A stretch of DNA of 51,560 bases from Chitinophaga pinensis (lineage in GTDB: Bacteria; Bacteroidota; Bacteroidia; Chitinophagales; CAMDFR01): positions 1 through 51,560 of the forward strand of contig CAMART010000020.1 of NCBI GenBank assembly GCA_945860705.1, in the 5' to 3' direction. Positions 2,342 through 50,410 of this stretch are shown one piece after another. The notes beneath the pieces are model-generated. The model saw nothing but the letters and a program-made list of their open reading frames with translations. It ran no database searches and was not told the DNA's origin. The position numbers were made by a program, and so were the translations under genes. The stretch's first letter is position 1. Every line of letters starts with the position of its first letter.

Positions 2342-2371
2342 TTATATAGAAAATATCATATAAAACTATAG

Positions 2372-2384
2372 TGATGATTTGTAA
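2372..2384 (+). pseudogene. Possible remnant of the 3' end of a cassette recombinase gene
   Basis: TGATGATTTGTAA here is identical to the last 13 bases of the recombinase gene ending at 48385 (codons Asp-Asp-Leu-stop). The following ~87 bases also align with the sequence after that stop codon, ending in a 19-of-20 match (2452-2471 against 48451-48470). The simplest reading is that this locus once had a recombinase gene in the same position, since deleted to its last four codons. The alternative is that these bases belong to the recombination site itself. Thirteen bases alone would be weak; the collinear homology after them strengthens the case. Confidence 0.5.
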
Positions 2385-2496
2385 TCAAAAATTATATATA
2401 TTTGAAAGTATATGCGAAACTCTATAAGCAAAAACATGCGCCAATCTACCCAAAAAATGGTGTGATTGGCGCAACAGAGTTGCGCCAATATATAAG
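2385..2496 (+). repeat. attI-like leader repeat, copy A, at the recombinase-less locus
   Basis: This is one of three related copies in the window; the others follow the recombinase at 48386-48491 and 48557-48640. It contains a TATATTTG box (2397-2404) resembling a Bacteroidota -7 promoter, shared in position with copy C. Next comes GCGCCAAT (2438-2445) paired with ATTGGCGC (2465-2472). A second hairpin follows with an 11-bp stem, ATTGGCGCAAC, loop AGA, GTTGCGCCAAT (2465-2489). It ends TATATAAG, exactly where cassette 0 begins. By comparison with copy B it should be the recombination site into which cassettes were inserted, and possibly also their promoter. Function is inferred; repeat and hairpins are seen directly. 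Confidence 0.7.
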
Positions 2497-2685
2497 ATGG
2501 CAAAAATAAAAATACCGCAATTCAATCTTTCTTTGAAAGATTTATGACTTGCAATTTTTGCCATTGGATTTTGCATTAATCCAAGTATTTTTACTTCTGC
2601 CATCAGGCACATTTGTAAAATACTAGGCTTATTTGTTATCATACTTTTTGAAAATAAAAAGTACTTCACAAATCTGCAAAATCCA
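2497..2685 (+). mobile_element. Cassette 0: 189-bp geneless or microORF integron-like cassette with divergent attC
   Basis: The unit starts with ATGGCAAAAAT (2497-2507), whose exact reverse complement ATTTTTGCCAT lies at 2554-2564 as the left box of its closing palindrome. The palindrome arms are TGGATTTTGCA (2565-2575) and TGCAAAATCCA (2675-2685), 11 bp perfect, and weaker pairing continues inward. The right end TCTGCAAAATCCA resembles the right ends of the two long attC-like sites (TAGCTGCAAAACG). The conserved AAC/GTT triplet is replaced by TGG/CCA, so this is a divergent site. The only forward frame is 16 codons (2497-2547) starting at the first base; whether it is translated is unknown. 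A 94-codon minus-strand frame crosses the hairpins and is not credible. Confidence 0.6.
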
Positions 2686-4601
2686 TTAAGGGCAAGCTTG
2701 AACGAAAATTGCCCAATTGGTTAAACAATTAAAAACAAAACATGAAAAAGAAAAACTTACTAATGGCAGCAATTGCAATCTTTGGATTTGCAACAATTAG
2801 CATGGCTCAAAATGTTCGAGCTTGGGGTACTTATTACACAGGTACCGGACAAGTATGGCCGAACGGAGAAGATAGAGGACAGGCCTGTATTACCGATGCC
2901 GCTGGCAATGTTTACATGGTTGGGACCACCAATTCAAATTCAGATATAGCAACAGTAGGAGCGCATCAAACTATTTGTGCCGGGGGGGACACGATTGGTG
3001 GTTTCAGTGGTACTGATGCCTTTTTAGTAAAGTTTAATTCAAGTGGAGTTCGACAATGGGCTACTTATTACGGAGGGAGCGAATGGGATTATGGAATATC
3101 TTGCGCTATTGACGCTTCCGGCAATGTTTATATGATTGGATCTACAAGTTCCACATCAGGTATAGCCACGGCAGGAGCCCATGAAACTACAGTTAATGAC
3201 GGCTTTTTAGTAAAGTTTAATTCAAGTGGAGTAAGGCAATGGGGCACTTATTTCGAAGGTAATGGTAATGCCTGCGCTACAGATGCTTCCGGCAATGTTT
3301 ACATAGTTGGATTAACAAATTCTACTTCAGGCATAGCCACAGCAGGGGCGCATCAAACTGTGATGTCGGGCAGTGGTGACGCTTTTTTAGTAAAGTTTAA
3401 TTCAAGCGGAGTAAGGCAATGGGGGACTTATTTTGGAGGGCCTTTCAATGGTGGCAGCGCTAACGAAACGGGAATATCCTGCGCCACCGATGCTTCAGGC
3501 AATATTTATATGGTGGGAAAAACACCGTCTACTTCAGGTATAGCCACTGTAGGAGCGCATCAAACAGCTGGTGGAACTCAATTTTTTGACGCTTTTTTAG
3601 TAAGGTTTAATTCAACTGGAGTAATACAATGGGGAACTTATTACGATGGTTTGGGAGATACACAACCAAATTCATGTGCTACCGATGCATCTGGCAATGT
3701 ATATATGGCGGGACAAGTATTCCAGGAGCTACTTCCTGATTCAGGCATATCCACACCTGGGGCTCATCAAACCACTTATGGTGGGGGTTTCACTGACGCT
3801 TTCTTAGTAAAGTTTGATCCAAATGGAGTAAGGCAATGGGGAACTTATTACGGAGGTAGCTCAGTAGAAGAGGGGACTTCCTGCGCTATTGATCCCTCTG
3901 GCAATGTATACATTGCTGGACATACAGGTTCAACTACTGGTATAGCTACAGCAGGAGCGCATCAAACTGTCTTTGGAGGTGGTGGTTTAGACGGCTTTTT
4001 AGTCTGTTTTAACTCAAGCGGAGTAAGACAAAGCGGCACCTATTATGGCGAAGGTTTTGTAAGCGGATGCGCTTCAGATGCTTCAGGCAATGTTTACATG
4101 GCGGGGATTACACAATCTAGTTCGGGCATAGCCACAGCAGGAGCGCATCAAACCGCAAATGGGAATAGTGGTTACAACGATGCTTTCTTAGTAAAATTTA
4201 GTGGCATAAGTGTGGGTATTAATGAAACTATAAATGATAAATTATTTACAATTTACCCTAACCCTACCCAAAGTATAGTCAATGTACAAGCTGATGTCAA
4301 ACTTATTGGTTCTGCATACTCTATTCATGACAACACAGGCAAAGTAGTTTTATCGGGAACAATAAATTCTGAAAACATTAGCGTGGATTTAGGGAATTTA
4401 GCGGCAGGTATTTATTTATTCAATGTAGGAGAAAACGTGAAACAGACATTTAAAGTGATTAAGGAATAAGCCAGCCCTTAACAGCACCTACCCAAAAGGC
4501 GGGGTTTGGTGTTCCAAAGACAGTTTTGTGGTTAATCAAACATTAGTTTTTCAAATCAAATTTTGTGGAAAAAGTCCCGCCCTTCGGGTAGCTGCAAAAC
4601 G
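2686..4601 (+). mobile_element. Integron-like gene cassette carrying the SBBP surface protein
   Basis: The unit begins with TTAAGGGC (2686-2693). Its reverse complement GCCCTTAA is the left box of the attC-like palindrome at 4474, five bases after the stop codon of the only gene. Complementarity extends further with two mismatches (TTAAGGGCaaGCTT against TTAAGGGCtgGCTT). Start box, single gene and terminal palindrome whose R'' complements the start is the geometry of an integron cassette with crossover at G/TT. Base composition is visibly more GC-rich than the flanks. The base before the start is A, not G, because it comes from the divergent attC of cassette 0. Confidence 0.75.
2742..4469 (+). 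CDS. Secreted SBBP-repeat beta-propeller protein with T9SS type A sorting domain
   Basis: A 575-residue exported protein. Residues 1-22 are a signal peptide (KK, hydrophobic core, SMAQ). Residues ~25-490 hold about seven to eight repeats of the SBBP type, each with DASGNVYMVG, TSGIATAGAHQT, DAFLVKFNSSGVRQW and GTYYGG; such repeats fold as propeller blades. The last 75 residues are a T9SS type A sorting domain (TIYPNPTQS, then NLAAGIYLFNVGENVKQTFKVIKE), predicting export across the outer membrane and surface attachment or release. It is the only gene of its cassette. The DNA repeats are close enough for blade number to vary by recombination. Ligand or enzymatic role is unknown. Confidence 0.9.
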   Translation: MKKKNLLMAAIAIFGFATISMAQNVRAWGTYYTGTGQVWPNGEDRGQACITDAAGNVYMVGTTNSNSDIATVGAHQTICAGGDTIGGFSGTDAFLVKFNSSGVRQWATYYGGSEWDYGISCAIDASGNVYMIGSTSSTSGIATAGAHETTVNDGFLVKFNSSGVRQWGTYFEGNGNACATDASGNVYIVGLTNSTSGIATAGAHQTVMSGSGDAFLVKFNSSGVRQWGTYFGGPFNGGSANETGISCATDASGNIYMVGKTPSTSGIATVGAHQTAGGTQFFDAFLVRFNSTGVIQWGTYYDGLGDTQPNSCATDASGNVYMAGQVFQELLPDSGISTPGAHQTTYGGGFTDAFLVKFDPNGVRQWGTYYGGSSVEEGTSCAIDPSGNVYIAGHTGSTTGIATAGAHQTVFGGGGLDGFLVCFNSSGVRQSGTYYGEGFVSGCASDASGNVYMAGITQSSSGIATAGAHQTANGNSGYNDAFLVKFSGISVGINETINDKLFTIYPNPTQSIVNVQADVKLIGSAYSIHDNTGKVVLSGTINSENISVDLGNLAAGIYLFNVGENVKQTFKVIKE

Positions 4602-4607
4602 TTCTAG
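4474..4607 (+). repeat. attC-like site closing the SBBP cassette
   Basis: About 134 bases long. The left arm GCCCTTAAC AGCACCTACCC with GGCGGGG (4474-4505) pairs with the right arm CCCGCCC ... GGGTAGCTGCAAAACGTT (4577-4603). Arms pair imperfectly: AAC-A-GCACCTACCC against AACGTTTTGCAGCTACCC leaves extra unpaired bases on one side, as in true attC sites where extrahelical bases set strand choice. AACAGCACCTA and TAGCTGCAAAACGTT are identical in the attC at 48816-48950. Expected crossover is after G4601. From 4608 to 4828 I see no gene, hairpin or further cassette, so this is the last cassette at the locus. Confidence 0.8.
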
Positions 4608-4828
4608 ATATTAGCGAAGCACATACGAACCATAGATAAACTGGCATTTTTAATACCTATTCATACAAGTTGCTGTCACCTTGAACCCTAACTGATATTT
4701 CTAAGTGATTTTATAAAATTATTCATTATTTAAATGAATGGTTAAGCAATAATGTTGAACTAACTATATTAATATTGGATAATGAGTTATATTTTATTGA
4801 ATTGAAATGGTATATAGAAATAATAAAT

Positions 4829-47347: not shown

Positions 47348-48385
47348 ATGAAGTGGGAAGCAAAAGCAATAAAACATAATAAAGAGAAAAGAATAGCCAT
47401 CTATTTTGAAAAGGATGCAACTCTCATAGCTCGTGTAAAAAAACTCACAGGTGTTCGCTGGAGTGCAACACTGAAGGCTTGGCACGTACCAGATAATCCT
47501 GAAAATAGAGAACGGTTTAAAATAGCACCCGAATTAATATTGAACGACAATCATACAGCACATATCAAAAAATTTGAACAATGGCTCTATTCAAAAAGAT
47601 ATAGTGCCAGTACTATAAAAACATATAGTGAAGCATTAAAATCATTTCTACTATTTTATAATGATATAAGTATCGAAGCTATAACAAATGAAGCTGTAAT
47701 CAAATATAATAATGAATTTATACTCAAAAATGAACTTTCCTCCTCGTACCAAAATCAAATAGTAAATGCAATAAAGCTATTTTTCAGTAGCATAAAAGCA
47801 AAAACTATAAATCCTGAACTGATTCACAGACCTAAACGAGAAAAACTACTGCCCAATGTACTTAGTAAAGAGGAAGTAAAACAAATACTCGAAGCACATA
47901 ATAATATAAAACACAAAGCAATGCTCTCGCTCATATATAGTTGTGGACTCAGGTGTGGTGAATTATTGAACCTAAAACCTATACATATAGATAGCAAACG
48001 AGGAATAGTACTGATAAAACAAGCTAAGGGTAAAAAGGATAGAATAGCCCCATTAAGTATTAAAATACTTGATTTATTGAGAGTTTATTTTAAAGAGTAT
48101 AAACCTGAAAAATATCTTTTTGAAGGGCAAAATGTAGGCACACCATATGATGCAAGAAGTTTACAATTGGTGTTGAAACAAGCATTAGAAAAAACTAAAA
48201 TCACTAAACCTGTGACACTACATTGGCTCAGGCATAGCTATGCTACACATTTGCTCGAATCTGGCACCGATCTTAGGTATATACAAGAGCTACTTGGTCA
48301 TAAAAGCAGTAAAACTACCGAAATATATACTCATGTAAGTACCAATAGTATAAAACAAATAAAAAGTCCTTTTGATGATTTGTAA
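47348..48385 (+). CDS. Tyrosine recombinase with extra N-terminal domain, putative cassette integrase
   Basis: A 345-residue tyrosine recombinase; start ATG at 47348. Residues 1-60 form an extra domain (RIAIYFEKDATLIARVKK, GVRWSATLKAWHVPD) absent from XerC/XerD. A SAM-like core-binding domain spans about 68-150 and the catalytic domain 165-345. All catalytic residues are present: Arg202 (SCGLRCGELL), a Lys in AKGKKDR (227-232), His292 and Arg295 (HWLRHSYATHLL), His318 (LLGH) and Tyr327 (EIYTHV). The tail SPFDDL resembles the SPLDxL end of integron integrases. There is no insertion of the IntI type between the Lys region and HxxR. It is followed directly, same direction, by attI-like repeats and cassettes, so it is the likely cassette recombinase. 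Confidence 0.9.
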   Translation: MKWEAKAIKHNKEKRIAIYFEKDATLIARVKKLTGVRWSATLKAWHVPDNPENRERFKIAPELILNDNHTAHIKKFEQWLYSKRYSASTIKTYSEALKSFLLFYNDISIEAITNEAVIKYNNEFILKNELSSSYQNQIVNAIKLFFSSIKAKTINPELIHRPKREKLLPNVLSKEEVKQILEAHNNIKHKAMLSLIYSCGLRCGELLNLKPIHIDSKRGIVLIKQAKGKKDRIAPLSIKILDLLRVYFKEYKPEKYLFEGQNVGTPYDARSLQLVLKQALEKTKITKPVTLHWLRHSYATHLLESGTDLRYIQELLGHKSSKTTEIYTHVSTNSIKQIKSPFDDL

Positions 48386-48491
48386 GATAATATATATATT
48401 TGAAAAGTAAAATTGAAACAAAAATTACTAAAATCATCGACAATCTATTTAAAAAAAGGTGTGATTGGCGTCCCGAAGTTTCGGGACGTAG
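48386..48491 (+). repeat. attI-like leader repeat, copy C, directly after the recombinase gene
   Basis: Homologous to copy A from the recombinase stop codon onward. TATATTTG box at 48395-48402; degenerate first arm CAATCTATTT (48441-48450); conserved AAAGGTGTGATTGGCG (48455-48470). A second hairpin CGTCCCGAA / TTCGGGACG (48470-48489) has a different stem sequence from copies A and B but the same position. It ends TAG/TTATTG, so a G precedes TT exactly as at a cassette junction. No cassette can be shown between copies C and B; the 150 bases there are purine-rich and hold no gene. Confidence 0.65.
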
Positions 48492-48556
48492 TTATTGAAA
48501 ATAAAGAGATAAAGATGAGAAAGATAAAGATAGAATATAGAAAAAATGAAATGTAA

Positions 48557-48640
48557 TACGAAACAAAATACAATAAAAACCTTCGCCAATCTACCCAATA
48601 TTGGGTGGATTGGCGAAACTCAGTTTCGCCTATATACAAG
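48557..48640 (+). repeat. attI-like leader repeat, copy B, abutting cassette 1
   Basis: TTCGCCAAT (48582-48590) pairs with ATTGGCGAA (48609-48617) around the inner palindrome ACCCAATATTGGGT (48593-48606). A second hairpin GGCGAAACT, C, AGTTTCGCC follows (48612-48630). Then TATATACAAG ends in the G that precedes cassette 1. Its upstream part (GAAACAAAATAC...AAAAAC) aligns with copy A. Repeats A, B and C keep the second hairpin while its bases change on both sides, which points to a structure under selection. Confidence 0.75.
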
Positions 48641-48944
48641 TTATGTGCTATGCTAAAAGAATCGCACGTATTTTATCAATTTTATATTTTGGTATTGGTT
48701 CTGAAAACCATTTTCCCCCAAAGAAATCATTACCGCAATTAGGGCAGTGTTCATTGTCGTGGTATGCTCTACGTTTAAAGTGGTTTTCAGGTATCTCTTT
48801 AAAACAAGAAGCACAGCACATAACAGCACCTAAACTAGATGGCTGGATTTGTTCTTCTTTTGAAGGTTTATCTTTTAAATTATCCATTGTGTTTTTAATT
48901 AAATTTAGAGGTGTTAATCAGCCACCTCGTTTAGCTGCAAAACG
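48641..48944 (+). mobile_element. Cassette 1: integron-like cassette with a zinc-ribbon microprotein
   Basis: Starts TTATGTGC after G48640; its exact reverse complement GCACATAAC with that G is the left box of the attC-like site at 48816-48824 (match 14 of 15 when extended: GTTATGTGCTaTGCT). Unit length 304 bp. The only gene is on the minus strand, so no leader promoter can express it. Crossover sites at both ends read G/TT. Confidence 0.8.
48648..48821 (-). CDS. 57-residue zinc-ribbon microprotein
   Basis: With the start at 48821 the protein is 57 residues. CxxC knuckles (CCASC at 2-6; CPNC at about 26-29) form a putative zinc ribbon, followed by GNDFFGGKWFSEPIPKYKIDKIRAIL. The start ATG lies in the reverse complement of the left box (GTTATGTGC), and the stop codon TAG overlaps the cassette's start box. 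A start 22 codons upstream at 48887 is also open, but those codons would lie inside the attC arm. Such small zinc-ribbon proteins are common cassette cargo; function unknown. Which start is used cannot be settled here. Confidence 0.55.
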   Translation of the reverse strand: MCCASCFKEIPENHFKRRAYHDNEHCPNCGNDFFGGKWFSEPIPKYKIDKIRAILLA

Positions 48945-48950
48945 TTATCG
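48816..48950 (+). repeat. attC-like site closing cassette 1
   Basis: 135 bases. The left arm GCACATAAC AGCACCTAAAC with GATGGCTGGATT (48816-48847) pairs with the right arm AATCAGCCACCTCGTTTAGCTGCAAAAC (48916-48943) before GTTATCG. AACAGCACCTA and TAGCTGCAAAACGTT are identical to the site at 4474-4607, 44 kb away. Unequal arm bases (A versus GTTTT) recall extrahelical bases and unpaired spacer of true attC sites. Confidence 0.85.
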
Positions 48951-48980
48951 GCAACCCTAAAAGACCACACTAACAACAAG

Positions 48981-49568
48981 ATGACAAGCAAATATTTTGA
49001 TAAATTATTAGCGGAAATTTCAAAAACGGGCAAACCTAATATTGAAGACAACGAATATATTAGTCAGTTTTTTATACCTATAAATTCGACAAGAAATTCA
49101 ATTTTAGAAGAACAAGATAAAATTCCAGAATACTTGTATTTCATAAATTCGGGTTTTATGCGACTATTTTACTATGACCAAAACGGAGAAGAACAAACAA
49201 CTTTTTTGTGTTCGCAAAATGGTTTCATTGCATCATTCTCATCATTGATAAATCAGACCAAAGCGACAGAAAATGTAGAGTGTATTACGGATTGTGAATT
49301 ATTGAAAATTTCTTTCGTAAATGCAAAACAACTTGTAGACAAAAGCGTAATTTTCAAAAACTTTTTTTTATTAATGTTTGAAAAGTCTATTTCATTAGCA
49401 ACATTAAGAGCCAATGACTTAGCATCATTAAATGCTGACCAACGCTACCAAAAAATGATAGACCAACAAGCACACTTTATTCAAAATATTCCACTACAAT
49501 ACATTGCTTCATATTTAGGAATAAAACCACAAAGTCTGAGTAGAATTAGAAAACAGGCCATTAAGTAA
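48981..49568 (+). CDS. Crp/Fnr-family transcriptional regulator
   Basis: A 195-residue protein with an N-terminal cyclic-nucleotide-binding-like domain (roughly 25-120: FFIPINSTRNSILEEQDKIPEYLYFINSGFMRLFYYDQNGEEQTTFL) and a C-terminal winged helix (ASYLGIKPQSLSRIRKQ, about 175-191). It lacks the conserved phosphate-binding RxAT pattern, so it may bind no cyclic nucleotide; its ligand is unknown. It is 65 bases before the hydroxylase-family gene and probably controls it. Base composition matches neither flank closely. It is first gene of cassette 2. Confidence 0.88.
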   Translation: MTSKYFDKLLAEISKTGKPNIEDNEYISQFFIPINSTRNSILEEQDKIPEYLYFINSGFMRLFYYDQNGEEQTTFLCSQNGFIASFSSLINQTKATENVECITDCELLKISFVNAKQLVDKSVIFKNFFLLMFEKSISLATLRANDLASLNADQRYQKMIDQQAHFIQNIPLQYIASYLGIKPQSLSRIRKQAIK

Positions 49569-49633
49569 CATTTGTGAAGTAGAATAAAATTTTGTTTTTT
49601 GACATTTGCATTTCATTTAGCAACATTAATAAA

Positions 49634-50410
49634 ATGGAAACATTGCAAGAAATCTTAAAACAACTCCCCACAGCATTTGGACAGTCCTTAATGAATTACG
49701 GGATTATCGTAATTATTTATTTAGTAGTGTGGAAACTATTAAAAAAACGACTTAAAAATTGGAGAATACAATTGAAAGAACGTGTTGATGCAAATCAAAT
49801 CAAGTCAGAATTGTTAAACAGTCTCTTTACTTTAATGGTAAGTACCATATTTGTACTTATAATTTATTCTTTAAAATCACTTGGTTACACGAAAATCTAT
49901 ACAGACATAAATGAGTATCCTAAATTCTTTGCTTATGGTGGTTTTTTTATTTTTTTGCTATTTGACGACACTTGGTTTTATTGGATACACCGACTTTTGC
50001 ACCACCCAAAAATTTTCAAGTACATACACAAAGTACACCATAAAAGTATTGACGTTAATCCGTTTACATCGTTATCCTTTCATTGGGCAGAAGCTTTATT
50101 ACTCACATTTTGGATTGTACCAGTCAGTATGATTTTTCCAATGTACGTTCCTGCACTTGGACTATTACAGATTTGGGGTTTTTTAGACAATATAAAATCA
50201 CATCTTGGATATGAATTTTTTCCAAGTTGGTGGAACAAAAGTTTCGGAAAACTAATGACATCAAGTACACATCATAATATGCACCACAGTAAATTTAATG
50301 GAAATTATGGCGTTCATTTTCGTATTTGGGACAAACTTTTTGGAACAGAATTTAAAGACTACGAAAAAACATTTGACGAAATACAAGACCGAAAAAAGGG
50401 CAGCCGATAA
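49634..50410 (+). CDS. Fatty-acid hydroxylase/sterol desaturase-family membrane protein
   Basis: A 258-residue membrane protein starting METLQEILKQLP at 49634. Three to four membrane segments carry the histidine clusters of the family: HRLLHHPK, HKVHHKSIDVNP, HWAEALLL and HHNMHHSKFNGNYGVHFRIWD. They bind a di-iron centre that hydroxylates or desaturates lipids. Such proteins often act on sphingolipids, carotenoids or sterol-like lipids; the substrate is unknown. The final codon CGA is followed by TAA, which is part of the left attC box GCCGATAAC. With the upstream regulator it may form a self-contained lipid-modifying cassette. Confidence 0.88.
   Translation: METLQEILKQLPTAFGQSLMNYGIIVIIYLVVWKLLKKRLKNWRIQLKERVDANQIKSELLNSLFTLMVSTIFVLIIYSLKSLGYTKIYTDINEYPKFFAYGGFFIFLLFDDTWFYWIHRLLHHPKIFKYIHKVHHKSIDVNPFTSLSFHWAEALLLTFWIVPVSMIFPMYVPALGLLQIWGFLDNIKSHLGYEFFPSWWNKSFGKLMTSSTHHNMHHSKFNGNYGVHFRIWDKLFGTEFKDYEKTFDEIQDRKKGSR

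Follow-up and report, generated by a model that had tools for sequence, protein, structure and literature searches.

A probable recombinase-less satellite of an integron-like system behind pckA in a Bacteroidota genome

Similar leader sequences followed by gene cassettes lie in two regions of the window, i.e., the whole 51,560-nt stretch of DNA that was analysed (Table 1). Behind pckA, leader A precedes a short segment, the gene of an SBBP-repeat protein and an attC-like site. At the other locus, the gene of a tyrosine recombinase is followed by two tandem leaders, the first of which (B) has a degenerate core and the second (C) an intact one, and by an attC-like site and cassette genes for a Crp-like regulator and a fatty acid hydroxylase. 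A similar counterpart of this gene pair is present behind another leader of the genome (C15). Close to the contig end (50400-51554), only the left half of a shortened attC-like site remains (ATAACACGGGTT), followed by an IS1595-family transposase gene which is split into two frames. An Rfam search of the window gave no match. An earlier note on this DNA had described the same cassette order at both loci. This is correct for the succession of leader, short segment, gene and attC-like site, but the cassettes carry different genes, and at the recombinase locus the leaders stand in tandem.

Table 1. Coordinates of the features in the window.
Feature	Position	Strand	Evidence or remark
Leader A, attI-like docking site with inverted-repeat arms	2370-2504	+	Model R1, E-value 1.4e-12; model R3, 46 bits at 2366-2502
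Recombinase tail without the gene (last codons, ..DDL stop), AGTGATGATTTGTAA	2370-2384	+	13-base match, PSSM and spacing
Putative cassette promoter in leader A, -7 box of Bacteroidota type, TATATTTG	2397-2404	+	Conserved in 32 recombinase-adjacent leaders
Core of leader A, CAATATATAAG	2486-2496		
Two back-to-back hairpins, 189 nt ("short cassette" of the earlier note)	2497-2685	+	Sequence, fold, comparison with the G001 junction
Gene cassette, TTAAGGGC...attC	2686-4609	+	Same start behind the leader in G001 and at C1b
SBBP-repeat beta-propeller protein with T9SS sorting tail, 575 aa	2742-4469	+	PF06739, PF18962, TIGR04183
attC-like site of the SBBP cassette	4476-4609	+	148.8 bits (in training set); covariation
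Tyrosine recombinase, 345 aa, sole gene of its type in the genome	47348-48385	+	NF040815 213.6 bits, PF00589
Leader B, directly behind the recombinase, degenerate core	48368-48493	+	
Leader C, tandem copy, intact core ACAAGTTATG	48505-48648	+	
attC-like site, first cassette at the recombinase locus	48818-48952	+	119.2 bits (in training set)
Crp-like regulator and fatty acid hydroxylase, cassette genes	48981-50410	+	PF00027, PF04116

Leader A was aligned with the sequence at the 3′ end of the recombinase gene, and the similarity proposed earlier proved significant: the blastn-type score was 75, compared to 40 for the best of 2000 dinucleotide-shuffle pairs. The match spans TGATGATTTGTAA, TATATATTTG and the hairpin segment GGTGTGATTGGCG. 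As had been noticed before, the 13 bases of TGATGATTTGTAA (2372-2384) are identical to the last codons of the recombinase gene (48373-48385). Both the spacing and a PSSM support this exact match. TGATGATTTGTAA ends 12 nt before the TATATTTG box and the recombinase stop lies 9 nt before its own box, while the PSSM, derived from 32 other species, gave the tail of leader A a single-position P of 5.8e-5 (about 1e-3 after 20 offsets). Further, two models built with A excluded were applied. Model R1, comprising leaders B, C and three other leaders of the genome, recovered leader A with an E-value of 1.4e-12 in the whole genome. Model R3 was built from 32 leaders of other species, each directly behind a recombinase gene, with the own genome excluded; it matched A (46 bits), B, C and nine more leaders in the tested loci, and its whole-genome search added a thirteenth leader at C10. 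The homology claimed to continue through the leader is, thus, also seen by a cross-species model. Chance similarity of AT-rich sequence is ruled out for leader A by the shuffles and by the models which exclude it.

The alignment of the 32 recombinase-adjacent leaders covers species of Flavobacterium and, in addition, MAGs of Bacteroidota with assignments to many groups. In these relatives, the recombinase typically ends with SPFDDL-stop, and the leader comes at a fixed distance behind this stop, with a TAnnTTTG box, modules of inverted repeats and the core TATAWACNAGTT, which begins approx. 85–98 nt after the stop and whose GTT is the start of the first cassette. Leader and AGTT core are conserved behind the 32 recombinases. 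The leader resembles the attI of integrons, with a putative cassette promoter, and the TATATTTG box would drive cassette expression as a promoter. Since the four inverted-repeat arms covary between species in the 32 leaders, and since two arm types, GCGAAAC and GCGCAAC, are both present among the leaders of the own genome, the arms are suggested to be putative species-specific binding sites of the recombinase.

Longer pieces of the recombinase 3′ end were found in other members of the order, before leaders which have no full recombinase gene beside them. In G047 (121-kb contig), 75 codons are left, and an intact FAD monooxygenase-like gene lies a short distance before them. G019 has a remnant of 68 codons (110-kb contig), and no recombinase gene of this type was detected in this genome at an E-value of 1e-40. 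The remnant of G045 comprises about 51 codons with a stop and lies near a contig end, that of G049 comprises 29+16 codons with an internal deletion, shortly after serS, and 20–30 codons precede the leader in G018, G033 (two loci) and G050. At other loci of G049 (C12, C1 with 159 kb, and C22), fewer than 12 codons are kept, as judged by eye. In the own genome, approx. 14 decayed codons are present at C13 (score 34, shuffle maximum 27) and approx. 10 codons at C1a (score 35, shuffle maximum 33, z 6). Leader A has the shortest remnant, i.e., the last few codons and the stop, at normal spacing. Like A after pckA, the remnants in relatives several times come right after an unrelated intact gene. 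A remnant beside the attI-like site at the ancestral place is short at A and longer at comparable loci of relatives. Because relatives show such graded 3′ remnants, the reading of the 13 bases as a recombinase tail is well founded. The earlier proposal of a locus with a deleted recombinase gains from these remnants, but the part of it which places the deletion behind pckA finds less support.

Locus A had been regarded as a second locus of its kind, yet it is one of about a dozen, since 13 leaders were counted in the genome (2.94 Mb, completeness 100) using covariance-model searches. A restriction of the leader to the two loci of the window is ruled out by these 13 copies. One leader lies directly behind a recombinase gene, and this gene is the single one of the leader-linked type, besides two distant Xer-like genes. 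Eleven strong attC sites were detected, each 0.17–5.8 kb 3′ of a leader and on the same strand; eight of them had served to train the attC model. Arrays C13 and C15 have three attC sites each and locus A has one, and the attC-like sites at the ends of two more arrays, C27 and C1b, are of a shorter kind, were missed by the model and were recognized by eye.

The attC-like sites, which terminate the cassettes, begin with AAC and end with AAAMCGTT, and between these lie two stems separated by an AAAA/CTTC internal loop. In the eight own-genome sites, 98.4% of the cells are paired and 14 of the 20 pairs are changed on both sides. The covariation amounts to 0.592, compared to 0.154 when shuffled and at most 0.096 when slid. 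The sites are foldable, have AAC-GTT as R″/R′ and show L arms which pair on either side of a variable loop, as is required of integron attC sites. The model matched 38 of 60 relatives with up to 37 sites per genome, and 90 sites were found at E-values up to 0.05 in their loci. Recombinase, leader and downstream attC sites co-occur across genera. The attC of the SBBP cassette (4476-4609) is 95% identical to a site in a MAG labelled Chryseobacterium gleum (L134, 4792-4925); attC types are, therefore, common to distant Bacteroidota.

The best profile of the recombinase is the XerA/integron-integrase model NF040815, with 213.6 bits versus a cut-off of 220. The score with the integron-integrase model TIGR02249 is 192.3 bits and below the cut-off of 265, and the XerC and XerD equivalog cut-offs are not reached either. 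In the alignment with the IntI4 structure, two separate parts match (chain 10-175 and 246-317), and about 40 residues are absent from the recombinase. According to both the profile score and this structure alignment, the IntI-specific insertion is missing. The closest solved and curated matches are to tyrosine recombinases of the XerA/XerC/XerD kind (XerA 134 bits, besides NF040815), and the alignment with them has no IntI insertion. Unlike these proteins, the recombinase is extended at the N-terminus by approx. 70 residues, for which Pfam gives no match, and it is linked to cassette arrays and not known to act at dif. Without the IntI insertion, it falls outside the integrase family described so far, and the system would be integron-like in its working. 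To our knowledge, described integron integrases carry the IntI-specific domain, and few complete integrons have been reported from Bacteroidetes.

The segment which had been called a short cassette consists of two hairpins inserted between the G and the TT of the attI/cassette junction. It separates the leader core TATATAAG (ending at 2496) from the cassette TTAAGGGC (from 2686). In G001, the same cassette start is found directly behind the leader and reads GTTAAGGGC; since this junction is uninterrupted, the segment lies exactly at G^TT. The attC model gave no match in the segment and no copy was found in the 1.46 Mb of loci compared, and a reading as an attC cassette was rejected. The ends of the segment, if joined, would be the reverse complement of its middle. 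The segment may be a small element using the site or, alternatively, a damaged cassette. Because the insert interrupts the attI crossover point, locus A has probably lost its function as a docking site. With the insert present, cassettes would not be expected to integrate normally at attI, and normal excision of the SBBP cassette would not be expected either; locus A itself may be inert.

Altogether, we consider it likely that locus A is a recombinase-less satellite of a Bacteroidota integron-like system, probably having lost the gene before the unit was copied, and that it would be served in trans. The ancestral arrangement would be a docking site directly behind the recombinase gene. In the lineage of A, the gene would have been lost, and the last few codons and the stop would have been kept at the 5′ edge of the leader. 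Afterward, copies of the unit without its recombinase probably reached new sites, from which A, C15 and C1a with their common flanks would derive. The single recombinase (47348-48385) would move cassettes into and out of the satellites in trans, joining the attI core (AG^TT) to folded attC sites. Such action in trans is plausible, since there is one recombinase and one attC family. The SBBP gene of locus A is probably still expressed, while the 189-nt hairpin segment would prevent normal uptake or release of cassettes. On the other hand, the remnant of A is only about 15 nt long and its retention could reflect a function of the leader itself, which counts against this explanation. It is possible that the TTTG in the recombinase tail is a -33 promoter box, which alone would account for the retention of the tail, although its spacing is irregular.

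Upstream of leader A, approx. 60–90 nt are common to the recombinase-less loci C15 (z 13) and C1a (z 10); the A-C15 similarity is largely made up of a terminator hairpin with a T-run and could be convergent. The upstream flanks of C1b and C27 are similar, too (z 11). Because leaders share upstream flanks which are not recombinase sequence, recombinase-less units were probably copied to other sites, and as A has its flank in common with C15 and C1a, the gene was probably lost before the unit came to lie behind pckA. Common non-recombinase upstream sequence was also observed at leaders of G059 (L179, L188, L194), a genome with six leaders and without any recombinase of this type, and of G045 (L189, L195). 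The alternative that a complete recombinase-leader-array unit was once present behind pckA and that the gene was deleted there appears rather unlikely. The tail of A at the right spacing would fit such a loss in place, and relatives do carry truncated genes directly behind intact genes, e.g., behind serS in G049. However, this reading leaves the flank shared with C15 and C1a unaccounted for and needs about a dozen independent deletions genome-wide. Further, the intact recombinase gene which the earlier note had hoped to see after pckA in related genomes was not found: in two congeners, G002 and G003, neither leader nor recombinase is present behind pckA, and consequently no intact precursor of A is known. 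G001 has no pckA match. In G003, pckA is 95% identical, collinearity with the window extends to the stop of pckA, and next comes a glutamate dehydrogenase-like gene (C39, L233; by eye), whose counterpart in the own genome adjoins the C13 array (L005; by eye). We infer that a recombinase-less unit arrived behind pckA, with a rearrangement between arrays; cassette arrays may be breakpoints of rearrangements.

If the leader were a promoter and docking unit which never carried a recombinase, TGATGATTTGTAA would have been kept as part of the promoter or of a recombinase binding site overlapping the gene end. Several leaders of the own genome (C25, C12, C26, C27, C23) indeed have no recognizable recombinase tail. 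Nevertheless, this is improbable, as it is weakened by the coding remnants of relatives, which are up to 75 codons long and in some cases have deletions and stops, and as C13 and C1a retain more than the terminal codons. It is more improbable still that leaders and attC-like sites are regulatory or dispersed repeats unrelated to the recombinase, with incidental linkage. The hairpins do come after a promoter-like box, recombination is predicted here from sequence, and two other Xer-like genes exist in the genome; yet the same combination of recombinase, leader and attC sites downstream recurs in different genera, and the attC sites fold with covariation and have common AAC/GTT ends.

Compared with known systems, the putative satellites resemble the integrase-less parts of chromosomal integrons. 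In Xanthomonas, intI has been deleted or truncated with cassette arrays left behind, integrase-less arrays (CALINs) lie elsewhere in the genome, and attI-like site, attC hairpins with AAC/GTT ends and tandem cassettes are present as here (PMC12444791). In contrast, the Bacteroidota integrase has no IntI-specific insertion, the array follows the 3′ end of its gene and has the same orientation, and there are many satellites, each with its own attI-like site and promoter-like box. The suggested likeness to CALINs holds for the integrase-less array; however, both the attI-like site and the promoter-like box are retained at locus A, whose single attC is below the CALIN threshold of two. Archaeal integrons likewise combine a Xer/IntI-related tyrosine recombinase, an adjacent attI and attC arrays, many of them integrase-less, but the archaeal IntIs reportedly carry the IntI additional domain (PMC9668308), which is missing here. 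A survey lists one complete integron in Bacteroidetes proper, in Salinibacter ruber (PMC9024848). No description of the present system was found in the open-access literature (preprints and subscription papers were outside the scope).

The anatomy of an integron is present, with a predicted integrase, a putative attI with a promoter-like box and attC cassettes; the unusual part is the many promoter- and attI-bearing satellites per genome. We tentatively suggest a widespread, undescribed Bacteroidota integron-like system, in which a Xer-type integrase without IntI domain serves a distributed multi-platform integron, its docking sites (promoter and attI) having been multiplied as recombinase-less satellites. 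If the system works, gene-cassette exchange would be common in a major environmental phylum via a different integrase, and cassettes could be expressed from many promoters across one genome. Moreover, the graded remnants show a route by which recombinase-less arrays originate.

Regarding the cargo, the own-genome satellites C1a (L033, 10387-14740) and C13 (L030, 9783-14175) carry cassette genes of defence type, namely a complete type III restriction-modification pair, a GmrSD-type restriction gene, and HNH and Fic proteins. Movement of cassettes with such restriction systems would bear on the movement of phage defence. Three cassettes (window 2686-4475; C1b of the own genome, L042; G001, L022) have the common 5′ UTR start TTAAGGGCAAGCTTG and the common T9SS tail QTFKVIKE-stop-GCCAGCCC. 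Their middles differ and encode an SBBP propeller, another propeller-like protein and a LamG-like protein, respectively, and we interpret this as domain shuffling inside cassettes which share start and tail.
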